A stretch of DNA of 64,000 bases, taken from positions 1 through 64,000 of the forward strand of contig ONPG01000009.1 in assembly GCA_900319645.1 (NCBI GenBank), written 5' to 3'. Both the position numbers and the translations under genes were made by a program. Source of the DNA: an uncultured Bacteroidales bacterium (GTDB lineage Bacteria; Bacteroidota; Bacteroidia; Bacteroidales; Paludibacteraceae). Shown here one piece after another: positions 21,014 through 61,690 of this stretch. Every line of letters begins with the position of its first letter. The first letter of the stretch is position 1. Under the pieces are notes generated by a model that did not search any database, was not told where the DNA came from, and was given only the letters and a program-made list of their open reading frames with translations.

Positions 21014-21582
21014 TCGGCGATACATTAGTCAGCCTGGATGTGCTGGAGAAAGAGTTCTGCTGCGACTTGGACAAGTGTCGCGGTTGTTGCTGCATCGAAG
21101 GAGATGCCGGATGTCCCGTAACGGATGAGGAACTGAAACGGATAGAGCAACTCTTGCCGGAACTATTGCCGCAGATGACACCCGAAGCACGTGAGGTGGT
21201 GGCGCAACAAGGTCTCAGTTATCTGGATCCATCCGGAGAAAGGGTCCTGTCTATCGTCAACGGCAAGGATTGTGTCTTTGCCCGCACAGATCACAACGGA
21301 TGGTGTTATTGCCTGATAGAGAAAATGAGTAAAGATACTCATTTCAAGAAGCCTATATCCTGCCATTTGTATCCCGTGCGGCTGACGCAGGTTGGCGACA
21401 GAGTGGGCGTCGAATACCACCGGTGGGACATCTGTCATTGTGCCCGTATGCTGGGCAAAAAGAAACATATTCCGCTCTATCAATTCCTCAAAGAACCGCT
21501 CATACGGCATTTCGGAGAAGAATGGTACAACGAACTGGAATTAACGGCAAAAGAATGGAAAAAACAATGCGAGCAGAAATAA
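21004..21582 (+). CDS. DUF3109 family cysteine-rich protein
   Basis: This 192-residue protein starts at 21004 (MFIIGDTLVSLDVLEKEFCC), overlapping mntP by 10 bp; the longer frame is rejected because it lies inside mntP. The cysteine pattern CC-DLDKCRGCCC-IEGDAGCPV near the N-terminus, GKDCVFA, WCYCLIEK, PISCHLYP and WDICHCA matches DUF3109 (PF11307), related to the YkgJ-type putative Fe-S/zinc proteins. The function is unknown; a cluster-binding role is inferred from the conserved cysteines. The cinA start lies inside its 3' end. Confidence 0.85.
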   Translation: MFIIGDTLVSLDVLEKEFCCDLDKCRGCCCIEGDAGCPVTDEELKRIEQLLPELLPQMTPEAREVVAQQGLSYLDPSGERVLSIVNGKDCVFARTDHNGWCYCLIEKMSKDTHFKKPISCHLYPVRLTQVGDRVGVEYHRWDICHCARMLGKKKHIPLYQFLKEPLIRHFGEEWYNELELTAKEWKKQCEQK

Positions 21583-22817
21583 TTACTATAGGCGATGAAC
21601 TGCTGATAGGCCAAGTGGTGGACACCAACTCGGCATGGATGGCGGAAAGGCTTAACGAGATAGGGATCGAGCTCTACCAGATTACTTCCGTACACGATGA
21701 GCGCGAACATATAGTGGCTGCGCTGGACGAAGCTTTCAGCCGTGTGGATATTGTACTGACAACAGGCGGATTAGGTCCTACCAAAGATGATATTACCAAA
21801 CATGTGCTTTGCGAGTATTTCGGGACACACCTTATAGAAGATACGCGCGTACGCGAGCATATTATGCAACTGTATAGCAGCCGTCCCGATGTGCTGAACC
21901 GTCTTACCGCCACACAATGGTTAGTACCTGAGTGTGCGGAAATCTTAGACAATAGAGTGGGTAGTGCACCGTTAATGGTTTTCCACCACGGTCAGCAAAT
22001 CCTGGCATCTATGCCCGGAGTGCCGTACGAAATGAAGATTGCGATGGACGAACAGATAATTCCTTATCTTGAGAGATATAGAATTAACTCTAACTCCAAA
22101 TCAAGTATTTTTCACAAAACCCTTCAAGTAAACGGAATAGCCGAATCCTCTTTGGCTATCCTTTTGGAGGAATACGAGAATACCAAACCCGAATATATCC
22201 ATTTGGCTTACCTGCCGAAAGACGGTATCATTCGTCTGCGGTTGTCCTCATATGGCGAGGCGACAGAGACGGAAATGCATCAATGGTTCGACCGTCTCAA
22301 AGTGCTTGTGGCAGACTACCTGATTGCCGAAACAGACGAGCCTTTGGAGGTTATAGTAGGAAAGCTGCTCAAAGCGAAAGGGGCTACGATTGCTACAGCG
22401 GAGAGTTGTACCGGCGGCAAACTGGCTTCTCTTCTAAACAGACATTCCGGCAGTTCGTCTTTCTATTTTGGCTCTATCATCAGCTATGACAATAGTGTGA
22501 AAGAGCACTTGTTGGGAGTGTCTGAAGAAATGATACAAACCCGCGGCGTAGTAAGCGAAGAGGTGGTTATTCAAATGGCAAATGCTGTTCGCGCACAAAT
22601 CCGCACGGATTATGCCATCGCGACAAGCGGTATAGCAGGTCCAACAGGAGGATCGGAAGAGAAACCTGTCGGGACTGTTTGGATAGCTTGGGCTACGCCG
22701 GAAGGCACCTCTGCCGAGTGTTTCCATTTAGGCAAACTGCGCGAGCAGATCACAGACCGTGCGTGCGCGAAAGCACTCGTCCGGCTCATTCAGATACTCC
22801 GATCCTCAATCCAATAA
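21567..22817 (+). CDS. cinA: CinA: competence/damage-inducible protein, NMN deamidase type
   Basis: This 416-residue, two-domain protein starts at 21567 with MRAEIITIGDELLIGQVVDT, the invariant beginning of the molybdopterin-binding-like (COG1058) domain. TTGGLGPTKDDITK follows. The C-terminal PncC domain carries ATAESCTGGKLASLL, SYDNSVKEHLLGV and ATSGIAGPTGGSEEKPVGTV, which form the nucleotide amidase site that recycles NMN. An ATG four codons upstream (21555) is the alternative start. It overlaps DUF3109 by 16 bp and is followed after 6 bp by the transporter-OmpA fusion. Confidence 0.93.
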   Translation: MRAEIITIGDELLIGQVVDTNSAWMAERLNEIGIELYQITSVHDEREHIVAALDEAFSRVDIVLTTGGLGPTKDDITKHVLCEYFGTHLIEDTRVREHIMQLYSSRPDVLNRLTATQWLVPECAEILDNRVGSAPLMVFHHGQQILASMPGVPYEMKIAMDEQIIPYLERYRINSNSKSSIFHKTLQVNGIAESSLAILLEEYENTKPEYIHLAYLPKDGIIRLRLSSYGEATETEMHQWFDRLKVLVADYLIAETDEPLEVIVGKLLKAKGATIATAESCTGGKLASLLNRHSGSSSFYFGSIISYDNSVKEHLLGVSEEMIQTRGVVSEEVVIQMANAVRAQIRTDYAIATSGIAGPTGGSEEKPVGTVWIAWATPEGTSAECFHLGKLREQITDRACAKALVRLIQILRSSIQ

Positions 22818-22823
22818 TTCATA

Positions 22824-25679
22824 ATGAACGGTTTAGAACAATTCCTCTTTACGCCGTCTATCACCCAGTCGCTTCTTTGGTTGACGATAGTAATGACGGT
22901 CGGCTTATGGCTGAGCGAGAAAGCTAAGATCAAGCATTTCTCGCTTGGTGTCACGTGGGTTTTGTTTGTGGGTATTGCCCTGGCGTCCTTCGGCGTGCGC
23001 ATAGACCATCATATTGCCCAGTTTGCCAAGGATTTTGGTCTGATTCTTTTTGTCTATTCCATTGGATTGCAGGTCGGTCCTTCTTTCTCGCCTTTCAAAC
23101 GCGGCGGATTGCAACTGAATATGCTTGCAGCAGCAGTTGTTTTGCTGGCCTGCGTGTGTGCAATCGTGCTGCACTATACCACCGGTATTGATATGTCCAC
23201 TATGGCGGGTATCATGTCAGGTGCTACCACTTCGACGCCTTCTCTGGCATCTGCGCAGCAGGCTTATCAGGACATTACAGGAACCGTCAATCCCGATATT
23301 GCTACCGGCTATGCCGTGGCTTATCCGTTGAGCATAGTGGGAGTGATACTGGCTATCGAACTGATCCGCCGCTGTTTCCGTGTGCAGTTGCCCGAAGAGG
23401 AAAAACACTTGCGTGAGGCTGCTTCGGAGACGAATGAAGAGCCTGTTTGCGTGGATATTACGCTCAATAATCCCCAGTTGGATGTCATGACGCTGGACGA
23501 ACTGCAACGGATCTGTCCTGTCAAAGAGATGGTGGTCAGTCGCGTCATTCGTCCCGATGGTTCGGACGAATTGATTAACGAACAGACCACTTTCCGCAAC
23601 GGCGATACTATCCGTATTCTGACGGATAAACAACATATTGATTCCTTGCGTTTGCTGGGTAAGATGAAGGATTACGACCTGAAAGTGCAACGCGAGAAAT
23701 CCGACCATCTTATCTCGCGCCGTATAGCTGTCACCAAACCGGAGTGCAACGGCAAGCGAATCCGTTCGTTCAATCTCCGCCAGCAATACCACGCTACTAT
23801 CACACGCGTCAGCCGTGCGGGTATCGATCTGCTGGCTACGCCGGATATGGTTCTTCAGTTGGGCGACCGGCTGATGGTGGTGGGCGACAAGAACGATGTG
23901 AGCCGTGTGGCGGACACGTTTGGCAACGAGCTGAAACGTCTGGATGCGCCTCATCTGCTGCCTGTCTTTTTTGGCATGGTGTTGGGTATCTGTGTCGGTT
24001 TGCTGCCTATTCCGCTACCCGGAATGGGGCAGACTTTCAAACTGGGTCTTGTGGGCGGTTCGCTTATCGTAGCAATCCTGATCGGCCATTACGGACCCTA
24101 TTATAATATGGTCACGTTCTCCACCACATCCGCCAATATGATGCTACGCCAAATCGGTTTGACGCTTTTCCTTGCCGCCTTGGGCTTGAGTGTGGGCGAG
24201 AATTTCGTCCCGACGCTTATGGCGGGCGGATACCTGTGGATAGGCTATGGCTTTTTGATTACAATAGTTCCGCTGCTTATAGTGGGTGTGTTCGCTTATA
24301 AGTGGCTGAATATGAACTATTTCAACGTGGTCGGCATGTTGATCGGTTCGATGACCTCTGCGATGGCGTTGCCTTATGCGCAATCGCTCTCAAGCGAGAA
24401 TAACCAAGCTTCTGTTTGCTATGCAACAGTCTATCCGTTTACTACTTTCCTTCGTGTGATGGCGGCGCAATTGCTGGTTCTTGTCTTTTGCAGTTTCACC
24501 ACGCCGGATACCATTTCTCCGCAAGCCCTTCCGCAAGAAGTCAACACGCTAACGGGCGACGAGTACGGACCTGTTCTCTCAATAGACGACCGAACGCTCT
24601 ATTTTGTGGGTTTGGATCGGGAGGATGGTACGCCGAGTGAGGATATCTATGTCTCGCGCAAGGATCCGAAAACGGGCAAATGGGGTAGACCACGCCGCAT
24701 AGCAGAGCTGAGCAATCCTTACCGCAACGAGGCGCCAACGGCACTTTCGGGCGACGGAAAAACCATGCTCCTTTTTGTGGAAGGGCGCATGTGTTTCTCG
24801 ATCTTTCGGACTTCTATGTGGAGCGAACCGCGTCCGCTGCCTAAGTATCTGCAACTGGGCAACTGGCAGGCGGACGCTATGATAACTGCTGATGGCAAGG
24901 CTCTTCTTTTTGCTTCTAACTATCCGGCGGAAGGTGAGGATAAACCAAGCCTCAATATCTTTGTTTCCGAATGGGATGACCAAGGTCGTTGGGGTGAACC
25001 GTATTCGATAGGTCAGGCTATCAATACCACGGGCATGGAGCGTTCGCCTTTCCTCCATCCTGACTTGCACACGCTCTATTTCTCTTCCGATCGTCCGGGC
25101 ACAATGGGCGATTTGGATGTGTGGGTCAGCCGTCGTCTGAGCGACACGTGTTGGAACTGCTGGTCCGAACCTGTGAATCTGGGACCGCAAATCAATACAC
25201 CTGGGCGTGATTGCTGGTATAAGATTTCCACGGATGGCACACAGGCTTATTATGCCCAGAAAAGTGGCGAGAAATTCGACATCTATACCATCGAATTGCC
25301 GGAAGACAAACGTCCTGAGACAATCACGGTACTTGCTGCCGGCACTCCGATTGCTATCCAAAATCTGCTTTTTGAAACCAATAAGGCAGTCATTCTGCCC
25401 GAATCATTACCCGAACTCAAACGTATTGCGGATTATATCCGAGTCTATGGCTACAAAGTCAGCTTGGCGGGACATACGGATAATATCGGTCAGCCGGAAG
25501 CGAACCAGATTCTCTCTCAGGAACGTGCAGAAGCTGTGCGGCAGCAACTGATTGCTTTTGGTTGTGAGCCGGACGCTATTCAGGCTGTCGGATTTGGCGA
25601 TACTCGGCCCGTGGCAGATAACAATTCCAAGGAAGGACGACAACTCAACCGACGCGTCGAAATTACCTTGCTTCCGTAG
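22824..25679 (+). CDS. Fusion: AspT/YidE-type transporter + periplasmic PD40-like propeller + OmpA peptidoglycan-binding domain
   Basis: This 951-residue single ORF has three parts. Residues 1-556 are a complete AAE/YidE-type permease: two half-repeats of about five helices, each with the family's glycine-rich motif (IMSGATTSTPSLASAQQAY; GMLIGSMTSAMALPYAQ), separated by two RCK/TrkA-C-like domains (~205-370). Residues ~577-826 read as WD40-like/PD40 blades: YGPVLSIDDRTLYFVG, DLHTLYFSSDRPGTMGDLD, DGTQAYYAQ. Residues 835-951 are an OmpA domain with LAGHTDNIGQPEANQILSQ, the following ERAEAV, and NRRVEI. The last permease helix ends at the junction (~24490) and would deliver the tail to the periplasm in place of a signal peptide. 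No stop or frame change interrupts it. Confidence 0.85.
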   Translation: MNGLEQFLFTPSITQSLLWLTIVMTVGLWLSEKAKIKHFSLGVTWVLFVGIALASFGVRIDHHIAQFAKDFGLILFVYSIGLQVGPSFSPFKRGGLQLNMLAAAVVLLACVCAIVLHYTTGIDMSTMAGIMSGATTSTPSLASAQQAYQDITGTVNPDIATGYAVAYPLSIVGVILAIELIRRCFRVQLPEEEKHLREAASETNEEPVCVDITLNNPQLDVMTLDELQRICPVKEMVVSRVIRPDGSDELINEQTTFRNGDTIRILTDKQHIDSLRLLGKMKDYDLKVQREKSDHLISRRIAVTKPECNGKRIRSFNLRQQYHATITRVSRAGIDLLATPDMVLQLGDRLMVVGDKNDVSRVADTFGNELKRLDAPHLLPVFFGMVLGICVGLLPIPLPGMGQTFKLGLVGGSLIVAILIGHYGPYYNMVTFSTTSANMMLRQIGLTLFLAALGLSVGENFVPTLMAGGYLWIGYGFLITIVPLLIVGVFAYKWLNMNYFNVVGMLIGSMTSAMALPYAQSLSSENNQASVCYATVYPFTTFLRVMAAQLLVLVFCSFTTPDTISPQALPQEVNTLTGDEYGPVLSIDDRTLYFVGLDREDGTPSEDIYVSRKDPKTGKWGRPRRIAELSNPYRNEAPTALSGDGKTMLLFVEGRMCFSIFRTSMWSEPRPLPKYLQLGNWQADAMITADGKALLFASNYPAEGEDKPSLNIFVSEWDDQGRWGEPYSIGQAINTTGMERSPFLHPDLHTLYFSSDRPGTMGDLDVWVSRRLSDTCWNCWSEPVNLGPQINTPGRDCWYKISTDGTQAYYAQKSGEKFDIYTIELPEDKRPETITVLAAGTPIAIQNLLFETNKAVILPESLPELKRIADYIRVYGYKVSLAGHTDNIGQPEANQILSQERAEAVRQQLIAFGCEPDAIQAVGFGDTRPVADNNSKEGRQLNRRVEITLLP

Positions 25680-59629: not shown

Positions 59630-61690
59630 GTGAGAAAATTTAGAATATTAAACATCAGTTTGTTAGCGGCATTCGTATTGCTGCCGGGTTGTAGCATACA
59701 ACAACGAGTCAAACGTGCCGACAAGAAATACGCGATAGGCGAGTATTTCTCGGCTGCTGACATCTACAAACAATGTTACAGCCGCCTTTCCACCCAGAAA
59801 GACCGGGCTTTGAAAGGTCATGTGGCTTTCCGTCAAGGCGAGTGCTACCGCGTGTTGAACAACACACGTGCCGTTAACGCGTACAATAGTGCCATCCGTT
59901 GCAAATACCAGTTGCAGGATTCTACGGTCTATCTGAGGCTCGCACAAGTGCTGCAATTCCAAGGCAAATACAAAGATGCAGCCAAGAACTATGAACTGTA
60001 TTTGGAGGCGCATCCGAATGACTATTCCGCACGCGCAGGCTTGTATGCGTGCAACAAAGTGAATGAGTGGAAAGCCGAACCAAGCCGTTACAAAGTAGCA
60101 GAAGCCAAGGAGTTCAATCAGAAACGTTATAGTGCTTTCGCTCCGATGTTTATTGGCAAACAAGGCGATGCACTCATGTTCACCAGCAACCGTCAGGAAC
60201 GGCAGAGAGGCAGCAAGAAACTCAAACGAGCCAGCAACGTAACGGGTCAGCAGATGTTCCAACTCTACCAGACGCGCAAAAATGCCGCCGGAGAATGGGA
60301 AGAGATCGAACTGGCGGAAGGTTTGTACGGCGATCAGGAGAACGAGCAGCAGAACGATTCCGCAGGCAAGCAAGCCGGAAATGCAGAGATAGGCGTTTGC
60401 TCCTTTACGCAAGACGGCAAAACCATGTATTTCACTTATTCCAAGCCGATTAACGGTCAGGATTTGGGCGCTAAGATCTACAAAAGCGAGCGTGCGAGCG
60501 GCGAATGGGGCGAAGCACAGGAAGTCAAACTGTTTGCCGACAGTTCGATTACAGTCGGACATCCGGCTCTGAGTCCGGACGGAGAGAAACTGTATTTCGT
60601 AAGTGACGCAGCCGGCGGTTACGGAGGAAAAGACATCTGGATGGCGGAACTGGACGGCGACGAATGGGTCAACCCGCAACCGCTCGGACCAAGCATCAAT
60701 ACCAAAGAAAACGAGATGTACCCGTATGTGCATGCCGACGGAAGTTTGTATTTCTCCAGTAACGGTCATCCGGGTTACGGCGGTTTGGATATCTTCAAAG
60801 CCGTGCAGGACACCACGATAAAAGACAGCGTAGTATGGCTGCTCTACAACATGGCTACCCCACTCAACTCCAACGGAGACGATTTCGGAATCACGTTCGA
60901 CGGCGAGAGCCAAAACGGCTTTTTCTCCTCGAACCGCAACGAGAAGAAAGCTTATGACAAAATCTACAGTTTCATCCTTCCCGAGATGGAGTTTCTCGCC
61001 GAAGGTACGATTACGGACAACCAGGGCGAAGCGATAGCCGAAGCACGCCTGCGTATCGTGGGTAGCGATGGAACCAACAGCAAGATGAATGCCCGCCGCG
61101 ACGGAACCTACAAAATCAAACTGAAGAAAGATGTCAAATATGTCATGTTGGCAAGTGCACGCGGCTATCTGAACGCCAAAGAACAATGGAACACCATGGA
61201 CCTGAAAGACAGCAAGACCTATAAAATGGATTTTGTGCTCAACCCGATAAGCCGTCCTGTGCAAATGGACAATATATTCTATGAATCAGGTCGTTGGGAG
61301 TTGTCGCAAGCATCCGAAAGCGGATTGCAGAGTCTGGTAAAACTGCTGAATGACAATCCGAATATCACAATCGAGCTGTCTGCCCACACGGATATGGTGG
61401 GTAACGACAAGTTCAACCAGGAGTTGTCGCAAAAACGTGCTCAGGCTTGCTGCGATTATCTCATCAAACACGGTATTGAGAAAGAAAGGCTGACGCCTGT
61501 CGGCTACGGCGAGCAGAAACCGGTTGTGGCGGACAAAGCTATTCACCAGAAATACAGTTTCATTCCTCAGGAACAAGTGCTCGACGAAGCGTTTGTATCT
61601 TCTCTGCCTGCCGACAAACAGGAGATTTGCAACCAGATTAACCGACGGACGGAGTTCAAAGTGGTGAAGACAACATACAAGTTGTATTGA
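59630..61690 (+). CDS. PorE-like lipoprotein: TPR, propeller, CarboxypepD-reg and OmpA domains
   Basis: This 686-residue protein uses a GTG start at 59630. Lipobox LLPGC (Cys21). A TPR region (~25-150: YAIGEYFSAADIYKQCYSRL, LAQVLQFQGKYKDAAKNYEL) is followed by PD40/WD40-like blades (~170-440: GGYGGKDIWMAELDGDEW, GHPGYGGLDIFKAV). A regulatory-like beta domain (AEGTITDNQGEAIAEARLRI) precedes a C-terminal OmpA domain (TIELSAHTDMVGNDKFNQEL, INRRTEFKV). The order is that of PorE, the type IX secretion component that anchors the machine to peptidoglycan. Its propeller-OmpA half parallels the tail of the fusion protein at 22824. Confidence 0.88.
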   Translation: MRKFRILNISLLAAFVLLPGCSIQQRVKRADKKYAIGEYFSAADIYKQCYSRLSTQKDRALKGHVAFRQGECYRVLNNTRAVNAYNSAIRCKYQLQDSTVYLRLAQVLQFQGKYKDAAKNYELYLEAHPNDYSARAGLYACNKVNEWKAEPSRYKVAEAKEFNQKRYSAFAPMFIGKQGDALMFTSNRQERQRGSKKLKRASNVTGQQMFQLYQTRKNAAGEWEEIELAEGLYGDQENEQQNDSAGKQAGNAEIGVCSFTQDGKTMYFTYSKPINGQDLGAKIYKSERASGEWGEAQEVKLFADSSITVGHPALSPDGEKLYFVSDAAGGYGGKDIWMAELDGDEWVNPQPLGPSINTKENEMYPYVHADGSLYFSSNGHPGYGGLDIFKAVQDTTIKDSVVWLLYNMATPLNSNGDDFGITFDGESQNGFFSSNRNEKKAYDKIYSFILPEMEFLAEGTITDNQGEAIAEARLRIVGSDGTNSKMNARRDGTYKIKLKKDVKYVMLASARGYLNAKEQWNTMDLKDSKTYKMDFVLNPISRPVQMDNIFYESGRWELSQASESGLQSLVKLLNDNPNITIELSAHTDMVGNDKFNQELSQKRAQACCDYLIKHGIEKERLTPVGYGEQKPVVADKAIHQKYSFIPQEQVLDEAFVSSLPADKQEICNQINRRTEFKVVKTTYKLY

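Follow-up and report, generated by a model that had tools for sequence, protein, structure and literature searches.

A 64,000-nucleotide stretch of DNA from an uncultured Bacteroidales bacterium of the family Paludibacteraceae (assembly GCA_900319645.1, contig ONPG01000009.1, positions 1 to 64,000; hereafter, the window) contains an open reading frame (ORF) in which a transporter of the AspT/YidE family is followed, in the same frame, by a PD40 beta-propeller and an OmpA-like domain. A preliminary description of the window had singled out this ORF as a fusion of the three parts. This holds: all 951 codons can be read without an internal stop, Pfam assigns two Asp-Al_Ex and two TrkA_C domains together with PD40 and OmpA to the product, and the transporter-propeller junction recurs in 45 of 178 genomes of the same genus. 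The features of the locus are collected in Table 1. The genome to which the window belongs (84% complete) encodes a single fused gene and, on another contig, a second, separate transporter that is 51% identical.

Table 1. Features of the fused gene and its upstream neighbor, in positions of the window
Feature	Positions	Strand	Basis or remark
Fused transporter-propeller-OmpA ORF	22824..25679	+	951 codons, ATG 22824 to TAG 25677-25679
Transporter half, residues 1-557	22824..24494	+	Pfam, NCBIfam, AlphaFold model, Foldseek
Cytoplasmic TrkA_C-type domains, residues ~189-366	23388..23921	+	Two Pfam TrkA_C stretches; secondary structure of the model
Last transmembrane helix, residues 528-557, predicted in-to-out	24405..24494	+	Model; helix order; charge distribution
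Linker, residues 558-575, FT-x-x-D...LP	24495..24548	+	Ends of transporter-only relatives; pLDDT <50 at 559-563
Five-bladed PD40 beta-propeller, PorE/CHU_0125-like, residues ~576-838	24549..25337	+	Pfam PD40; model
OmpA-like peptidoglycan-binding domain, residues ~839-951	25338..25676	+	Pfam OmpA; matches to solved OmpA-domain structures
Predicted diaminopimelate-contact residues Asp886, Asn894, Arg901	25479..25526	+	Same spacing as PorE Asp576, Asn584, Arg591
cinA	21567..22817	+	Directly upstream of the fused ORF, 6-base gap

Domains and topology of the fused protein

Residues 1-557 are a complete AspT/YidE-family transporter, as had been proposed. Two Asp-Al_Ex repeats (244.6 bits against a Pfam cut-off of 27; whole-protein E 6e-73) surround a pair of TrkA_C (RCK) domains, all above curated cut-offs, and the NCBIfam model of YidE-type transporters (PRK03818) covers residues 12-557 with 585.3 bits against a cut-off of 449. 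The score for the AspT equivalog TIGR03802 was 188.7 bits, below its cut-off of 546.95, and family membership therefore gives no substrate. The five best Foldseek matches were AspT structures (8xw5, 8y1x, 9oqy, and 9vdc; E 2e-18 to 3e-17, TMt 0.59-0.64), followed by OmpA domains.

An AlphaFold model of the fusion (79 aligned sequences, mean pLDDT 79, pTM 0.50) comprises helices that can be read as 10 transmembrane segments plus two re-entrant hairpins when the run 435-494 is treated as two helices, a cytoplasmic domain, five groups of three strands corresponding to the propeller, and an OmpA fold. pLDDT falls below 50 in six short stretches, including residues 559-563 of the linker. The accessible text of two reports describes the family as having 10 transmembrane helices and two re-entrant ones (PMC9527358), with the N-terminus outside (10H-2RH-N-out; PMC8396727). 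Ten helices and an outer N-terminus place the C-terminus outside, and the propeller and OmpA domain are accordingly predicted, from family and model, to be periplasmic, the side to which the preliminary description had assigned them. The last helix, which runs in-to-out in the model, would sit where a signal peptide is needed, again as described. Helix count, family topology, and the net negative charge of the C-terminal stretch are the basis for the suggested MotB-type placement of the OmpA-like domain.

The preliminary description had located the junction at residues 556-580, and comparison with relatives agrees with this. Transporter-only genes of the same clade end in FC(S/A/G) directly before their stop codon in nine of ten loci examined, and the fused ORF reads on past that point, FCS being followed by FTTPDTISPQ. 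The junction residues FCSFT are conserved in 39 of 40 full-length fusions. Inspection by eye revealed no canonical lipobox around the junction cysteine, and a lipoprotein at this point is considered unlikely.

The second half had been likened to a PorE-like lipoprotein encoded elsewhere in the window (59630-61690; signal with LLPGC, PD40, and OmpA), which is 28-33% identical to parts of it. The likeness is borne out by the PD40 propeller and the OmpA domain, although scores remain below the NCBIfam cut-offs for PorE (127.1 versus 600 bits) and CHU_0125 (138.8 versus 620 bits). PorE, a lipoprotein of Bacteroidota, comprises, according to the accessible text of a report on it, a lipoprotein signal, TPR, propeller, CRD, and OmpA domain (PMC7192894). 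No N-terminal lipoprotein signal, TPR, or CRD was found in the fusion, in which the propeller directly follows the transporter and OmpA directly follows the propeller. TolB of the TolB-Pal complex (2w8b_B) ranked ninth among the Foldseek matches.

Pfam OmpA matches residues 849-943 (72.7 bits against a cut-off of 27.2, E 3e-20), and chains of PomB and MotB are among the solved OmpA-domain matches. According to the same text, the PorE side chains that hold diaminopimelate are Asp576, Asn584, and Arg591 (PMC7192894). The equivalents of these residues in the fusion are invariant in all 40 full-length fusions and are also present in all 12 relatives that carry the propeller and OmpA but no transporter (11 scored by script and G051 by eye). 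The residues for peptidoglycan contact thus appear, from sequence, to be intact.

Distribution and conservation of the fusion

A query spanning the junction was run against 358 genomes of the family (178 of this genus and 180 of other genera) and 393 genomes of the order (3 of this genus and 390 of other genera), a match being taken to cross the junction when it began at query residue 3 or before. Among the matches listed, the family query returned the same 45 genomes of the genus and no fusion in the 180 genomes of other genera; the order query, again among the matches listed, returned a junction-crossing match only in the window's own genome and none in the 390 genomes of other genera. The nine listed non-fused matches reaching furthest toward the transporter side (G008, G183, G999, G1045, G258, G212, G305, G315, and G039) carry no transporter match and are PD40 proteins of other layouts. 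In a sample of 395 genomes from the phylum, PF06826 was above cut-off in 48, including the window's. Apart from the window's, the sole open frame in this sample longer than 628 amino acids (G853, 859 amino acids) reflects an open extension upstream, and no fused domain follows its transporter. The architecture is therefore restricted to the genus as far as sampled.

Full-length, single-frame fusions were identified in 40 of the 178 genomes of the genus, including the window's, at 76-100% identity. The other five of the 45 are three fusions without OmpA (G137, G184, and G100), one broken gene (G154), and one cut by the end of a contig (G109). The OmpA-less fusions (L075, L076, and L078) stop directly behind the propeller, their tails are alike (...PEDKRP...S(M/L)(L/F)(D/N)...), and they represent a natural anchor-less variant. 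They form one clade in the propeller tree (support 98), and one clade is not rejected on the transporter (p 0.60), so no transfer of modules is claimed from them.

In 43 of the 45 fused loci the gene immediately upstream is cinA. In the two exceptions (L207, G170:C50:1-7451; L208, G083:C38:12500-22000) other open frames precede the fused gene and the same phosphoesterase-like gene follows it; the locus is rearranged. cinA was also not seen in the fetched stretch of three transporter-only loci (G161, G178, and G064).

A separate collection of named contigs, which partly shares species with the genus set, yielded 38 close loci (68-76% identity), all with cinA upstream, of which 28 were fused and 10 comprised the propeller alone. 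Among the fused loci, L140 is broken inside the transporter and L150 lacks OmpA. The contigs are assigned to Paludibacteraceae, Bacteroidales or, once, Bacteroidia, and the hosts named are goat, sheep, roe deer, red deer, dairy cattle, yak, and pig. Many of the records are labeled 'RUG', which we take to denote rumen metagenome-assembled genomes.

Ratios of nonsynonymous to synonymous substitution (dN/dS) were obtained for 14 hand-picked pairs of fused genes, with synonymous sites near saturation in several. They were 0.016-0.046 for the transporter half (13 computable pairs), 0.034-0.121 for the propeller (11 pairs), 0-0.132 for OmpA (9 pairs), and 0-0.28 for the linker (13 pairs). Both halves are under purifying selection and are maintained as proteins in the fused species.

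These data also bear on whether the ORF is an artefact, either a chimeric contig or a read-through pseudogene. The broken gene of G154 would fit decay: a frame break and a missing stretch affect the first helices of the transporter, near the N-terminus (L077, G154:C50:8500-15300), although its propeller-OmpA part is intact. However, 40 full-length genes in the same frame among the 178 genomes, from many assemblies and several hosts, rule out chance, misassembly, or a pseudogene, which are further contradicted by the second collection of contigs and by dN/dS far below 1. We regard an artefact or a decaying gene as extremely improbable.

Origin and rearrangement of the two halves

With five rows from other families as its root, the transporter tree places the fused genes inside one clade (support 99) of 50 rows, of which 42 are fused with OmpA, three are fused without OmpA, and five are transporter-only; the nearest outgroups are transporter-only. 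Because the fused genes share one well-supported transporter clade, the fusion most likely formed once, in the ancestor of part of the genus. Multiple independent fusions from a propeller-only ancestral state are disfavored. The junction residues are near-identical, outgroups carry transporter-only genes behind cinA (G014, G088, and G176), no branch of the propeller tree sets the 12 propeller-only rows apart from all others (p 8e-6), and remnants of the last helix persist in 3 of 13 propeller-only relatives. The trees supply no root for the propeller half.

Six genomes of the genus (G098, G071, G102, G075, G060, and G120) encode PD40 frames of about 487-510 amino acids that are 48-50% identical to the fused propeller. 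One of these, L102 in G098, has an ordinary signal peptide and an OmpA end and is a candidate source of the fused module.

Three propeller-only relatives (G163, G151, and G160) still have, ahead of the propeller, the final part of the last helix together with the junction motif, which indicates that they derive from fused genes. The other propeller-only genes begin, on reading by eye, with an ATG, TTG, or GTG start and a short hydrophobic segment. In G151 and G160, cinA lacks its stop and runs in frame into the last-helix stub and propeller, giving open frames of 820 codons with OmpA (L093, G151:C2:89000-98300) and 705 codons without it (L197, G160:C10:29800-38800). This would be a second, derived fusion, and it would tie the cytoplasmic enzyme CinA to a periplasmic propeller.

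Recombination has probably replaced one half of the gene in the sister lineages G133, G186, and G135, whose transporters are close and whose propeller-OmpA halves are very different (L048/L049 versus L051), with divergence climbing from about residue 480. Between G133 and G135, synonymous differences (pS) amount to 0.13 in the transporter half versus 0.69 in the propeller half, and the test for one clade gave p 0.005. The transporter of the window's own gene (G000) groups with transporter-only relatives and its propeller with G128/G065 (p 0.026); this p value and the preceding one are indicative only, as the groups were chosen after the trees or distances had been seen.

Interpretation and comparison with known systems

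In our view the fusion is probably an antiporter of the inner membrane that carries, at its periplasmic end, a wall anchor resembling that of MotB. A PorE-type propeller and an OmpA domain would extend the periplasmic C-terminus of an AspT/YidE secondary transporter within a single chain. The last helix would leave the membrane on the periplasmic side and export the propeller, which would need no separate signal peptide. The OmpA domain would hold the complex on the meso-diaminopimelate of the wall, as in MotB/PomB for the flagellar stator, and the propeller could be a spacer or docking platform between pore and wall. The gene most likely arose as an FCS-ending transporter gene became continuous with a PD40-OmpA gene, and several lineages would later have dropped one half. 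The uncut chain, the binding to the wall, the anchoring or positioning role, and the direction of change are what we infer from the pattern described above. If the chain stays intact, solute transport would be linked to the cell wall within one polypeptide.

Several observations weigh against this interpretation. K/R are present in four of the five loops assigned to the cytoplasm, but the TM6-TM7 loop, assigned to the periplasm, averages one K/R and the cytoplasmic TM7-TM8 loop is uncharged, so the positive-inside signal is imperfect. With a pTM of 0.50, the placement of the domains relative to each other is not fixed by the model. The trees are 'quick' trees with many weak inner branches, and the branches carrying losses are uncertain. 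The transporter stands alone in five species that branch within the fused clade (G093, G188, G144, G080, and G161), 13 relatives have, behind cinA, the propeller but no transporter (12 with OmpA and one, G160, without), and three fusions lack OmpA; the tether is dispensable, given that these relatives exist. The preliminary description had raised the prospect that relatives might always keep the two parts as separate genes: the 40 full-length fusions contradict 'always', and these transporter-alone and propeller-without-transporter relatives show that separation does occur. Close relatives within the genus, mostly sharing one locus, display four states (fused, fused but anchor-less, transporter only, and propeller only), which amounts to a natural experiment.

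The existence of uncoupled relatives speaks against a strict mutual dependence of the halves and leaves room for the main rival, namely that the chain is a polyprotein cut by signal peptidase behind the last helix. The products would be an ordinary transporter and an independent wall-bound propeller, to which the fusion would only lend an export signal. That each half is found without the other would fit such cleavage, as would the transporter-less G163, G151, and G160, which retain only the helix end and junction before the propeller. Among the four regions, it is the linker whose dN/dS range extends highest, and the partly different histories of the halves (G133/G135 and the window's gene) point the same way. 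However, reading by eye shows neither a clear A-x-A site after FCSFT nor a canonical lipobox, and there is no obvious reason for a simple cleavage site to require a motif as nearly invariant as F-C-S-F-T (39 of 40). We hold cleavage to be possible but unlikely.

Two products could also arise from an internal start in the last helix, e.g., at Met546 in LRVMAAQLLVLVFCSF, the helix then serving as the signal peptide of a free propeller-OmpA protein made besides the fusion. The resulting N-terminus would resemble those of the propeller-only relatives, with their short hydrophobic segments and ATG, TTG, or GTG starts. However, this Met lies in a VMAGQLL... motif common to transporter-only relatives, and its conservation is therefore not specific to the fusion; we judge an internal start to be improbable.

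The position of the propeller between transporter and wall anchor would also suit a sensor that binds a periplasmic ligand or wall fragment, such that ligand or tension gates transport, and the accessible text on PorE regards its propeller as a likely protein-protein docking domain (PMC7192894). Close transporter-only relatives nevertheless keep the gene without a propeller (e.g., G093, 91% identity), which makes gating of this kind very improbable. A broader proposal, to which we assign a rather low probability, is that the fusion represents a new class of envelope machine, a wall-tied secondary transporter whose cycle is positioned or gated by wall attachment or wall fragments. In the equally tentative companion to this proposal, the locus would work as a site for interchangeable parts, where related species exchange the periplasmic module, discard it, or fuse it anew, even to CinA.

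The preliminary description knew of no described permease with this layout, and our searches of open-licence papers likewise returned none. OmpA domains that anchor to the wall occur on stators, secretion systems, and lipoproteins; we know of no secondary transporter that carries one. The whole transporter half resembles the AspT/YidE-YbjL exchangers (AAEx, TC 2.A.81, PF06826) and has the fold of 8y1x/9vdc, to which the fusion adds about 390 residues, predicted to be periplasmic, after the last helix. It has in common with PorE/CHU_0125 the five-bladed PD40 propeller and an OmpA domain whose three residues for wall contact are the same. Unlike PorE, it has no lipoprotein signal, TPR, or CRD between propeller and OmpA, and its anchor would be in the inner rather than the outer membrane.

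In MotB/PomB, a C-terminal OmpA-like domain fastens an inner-membrane ion-moving complex to peptidoglycan. MotB has a single transmembrane helix and pairs with MotA, whereas in the fusion the 10-helix secondary transporter would carry the anchor on its own chain, beyond an intervening propeller. TolB-Pal likewise combines a periplasmic propeller with an OmpA-type wall-binding domain, but does so as two separate proteins, with Pal an outer-membrane lipoprotein and no covalent link to a transporter. The fusion is composed of known domains in a new architecture.

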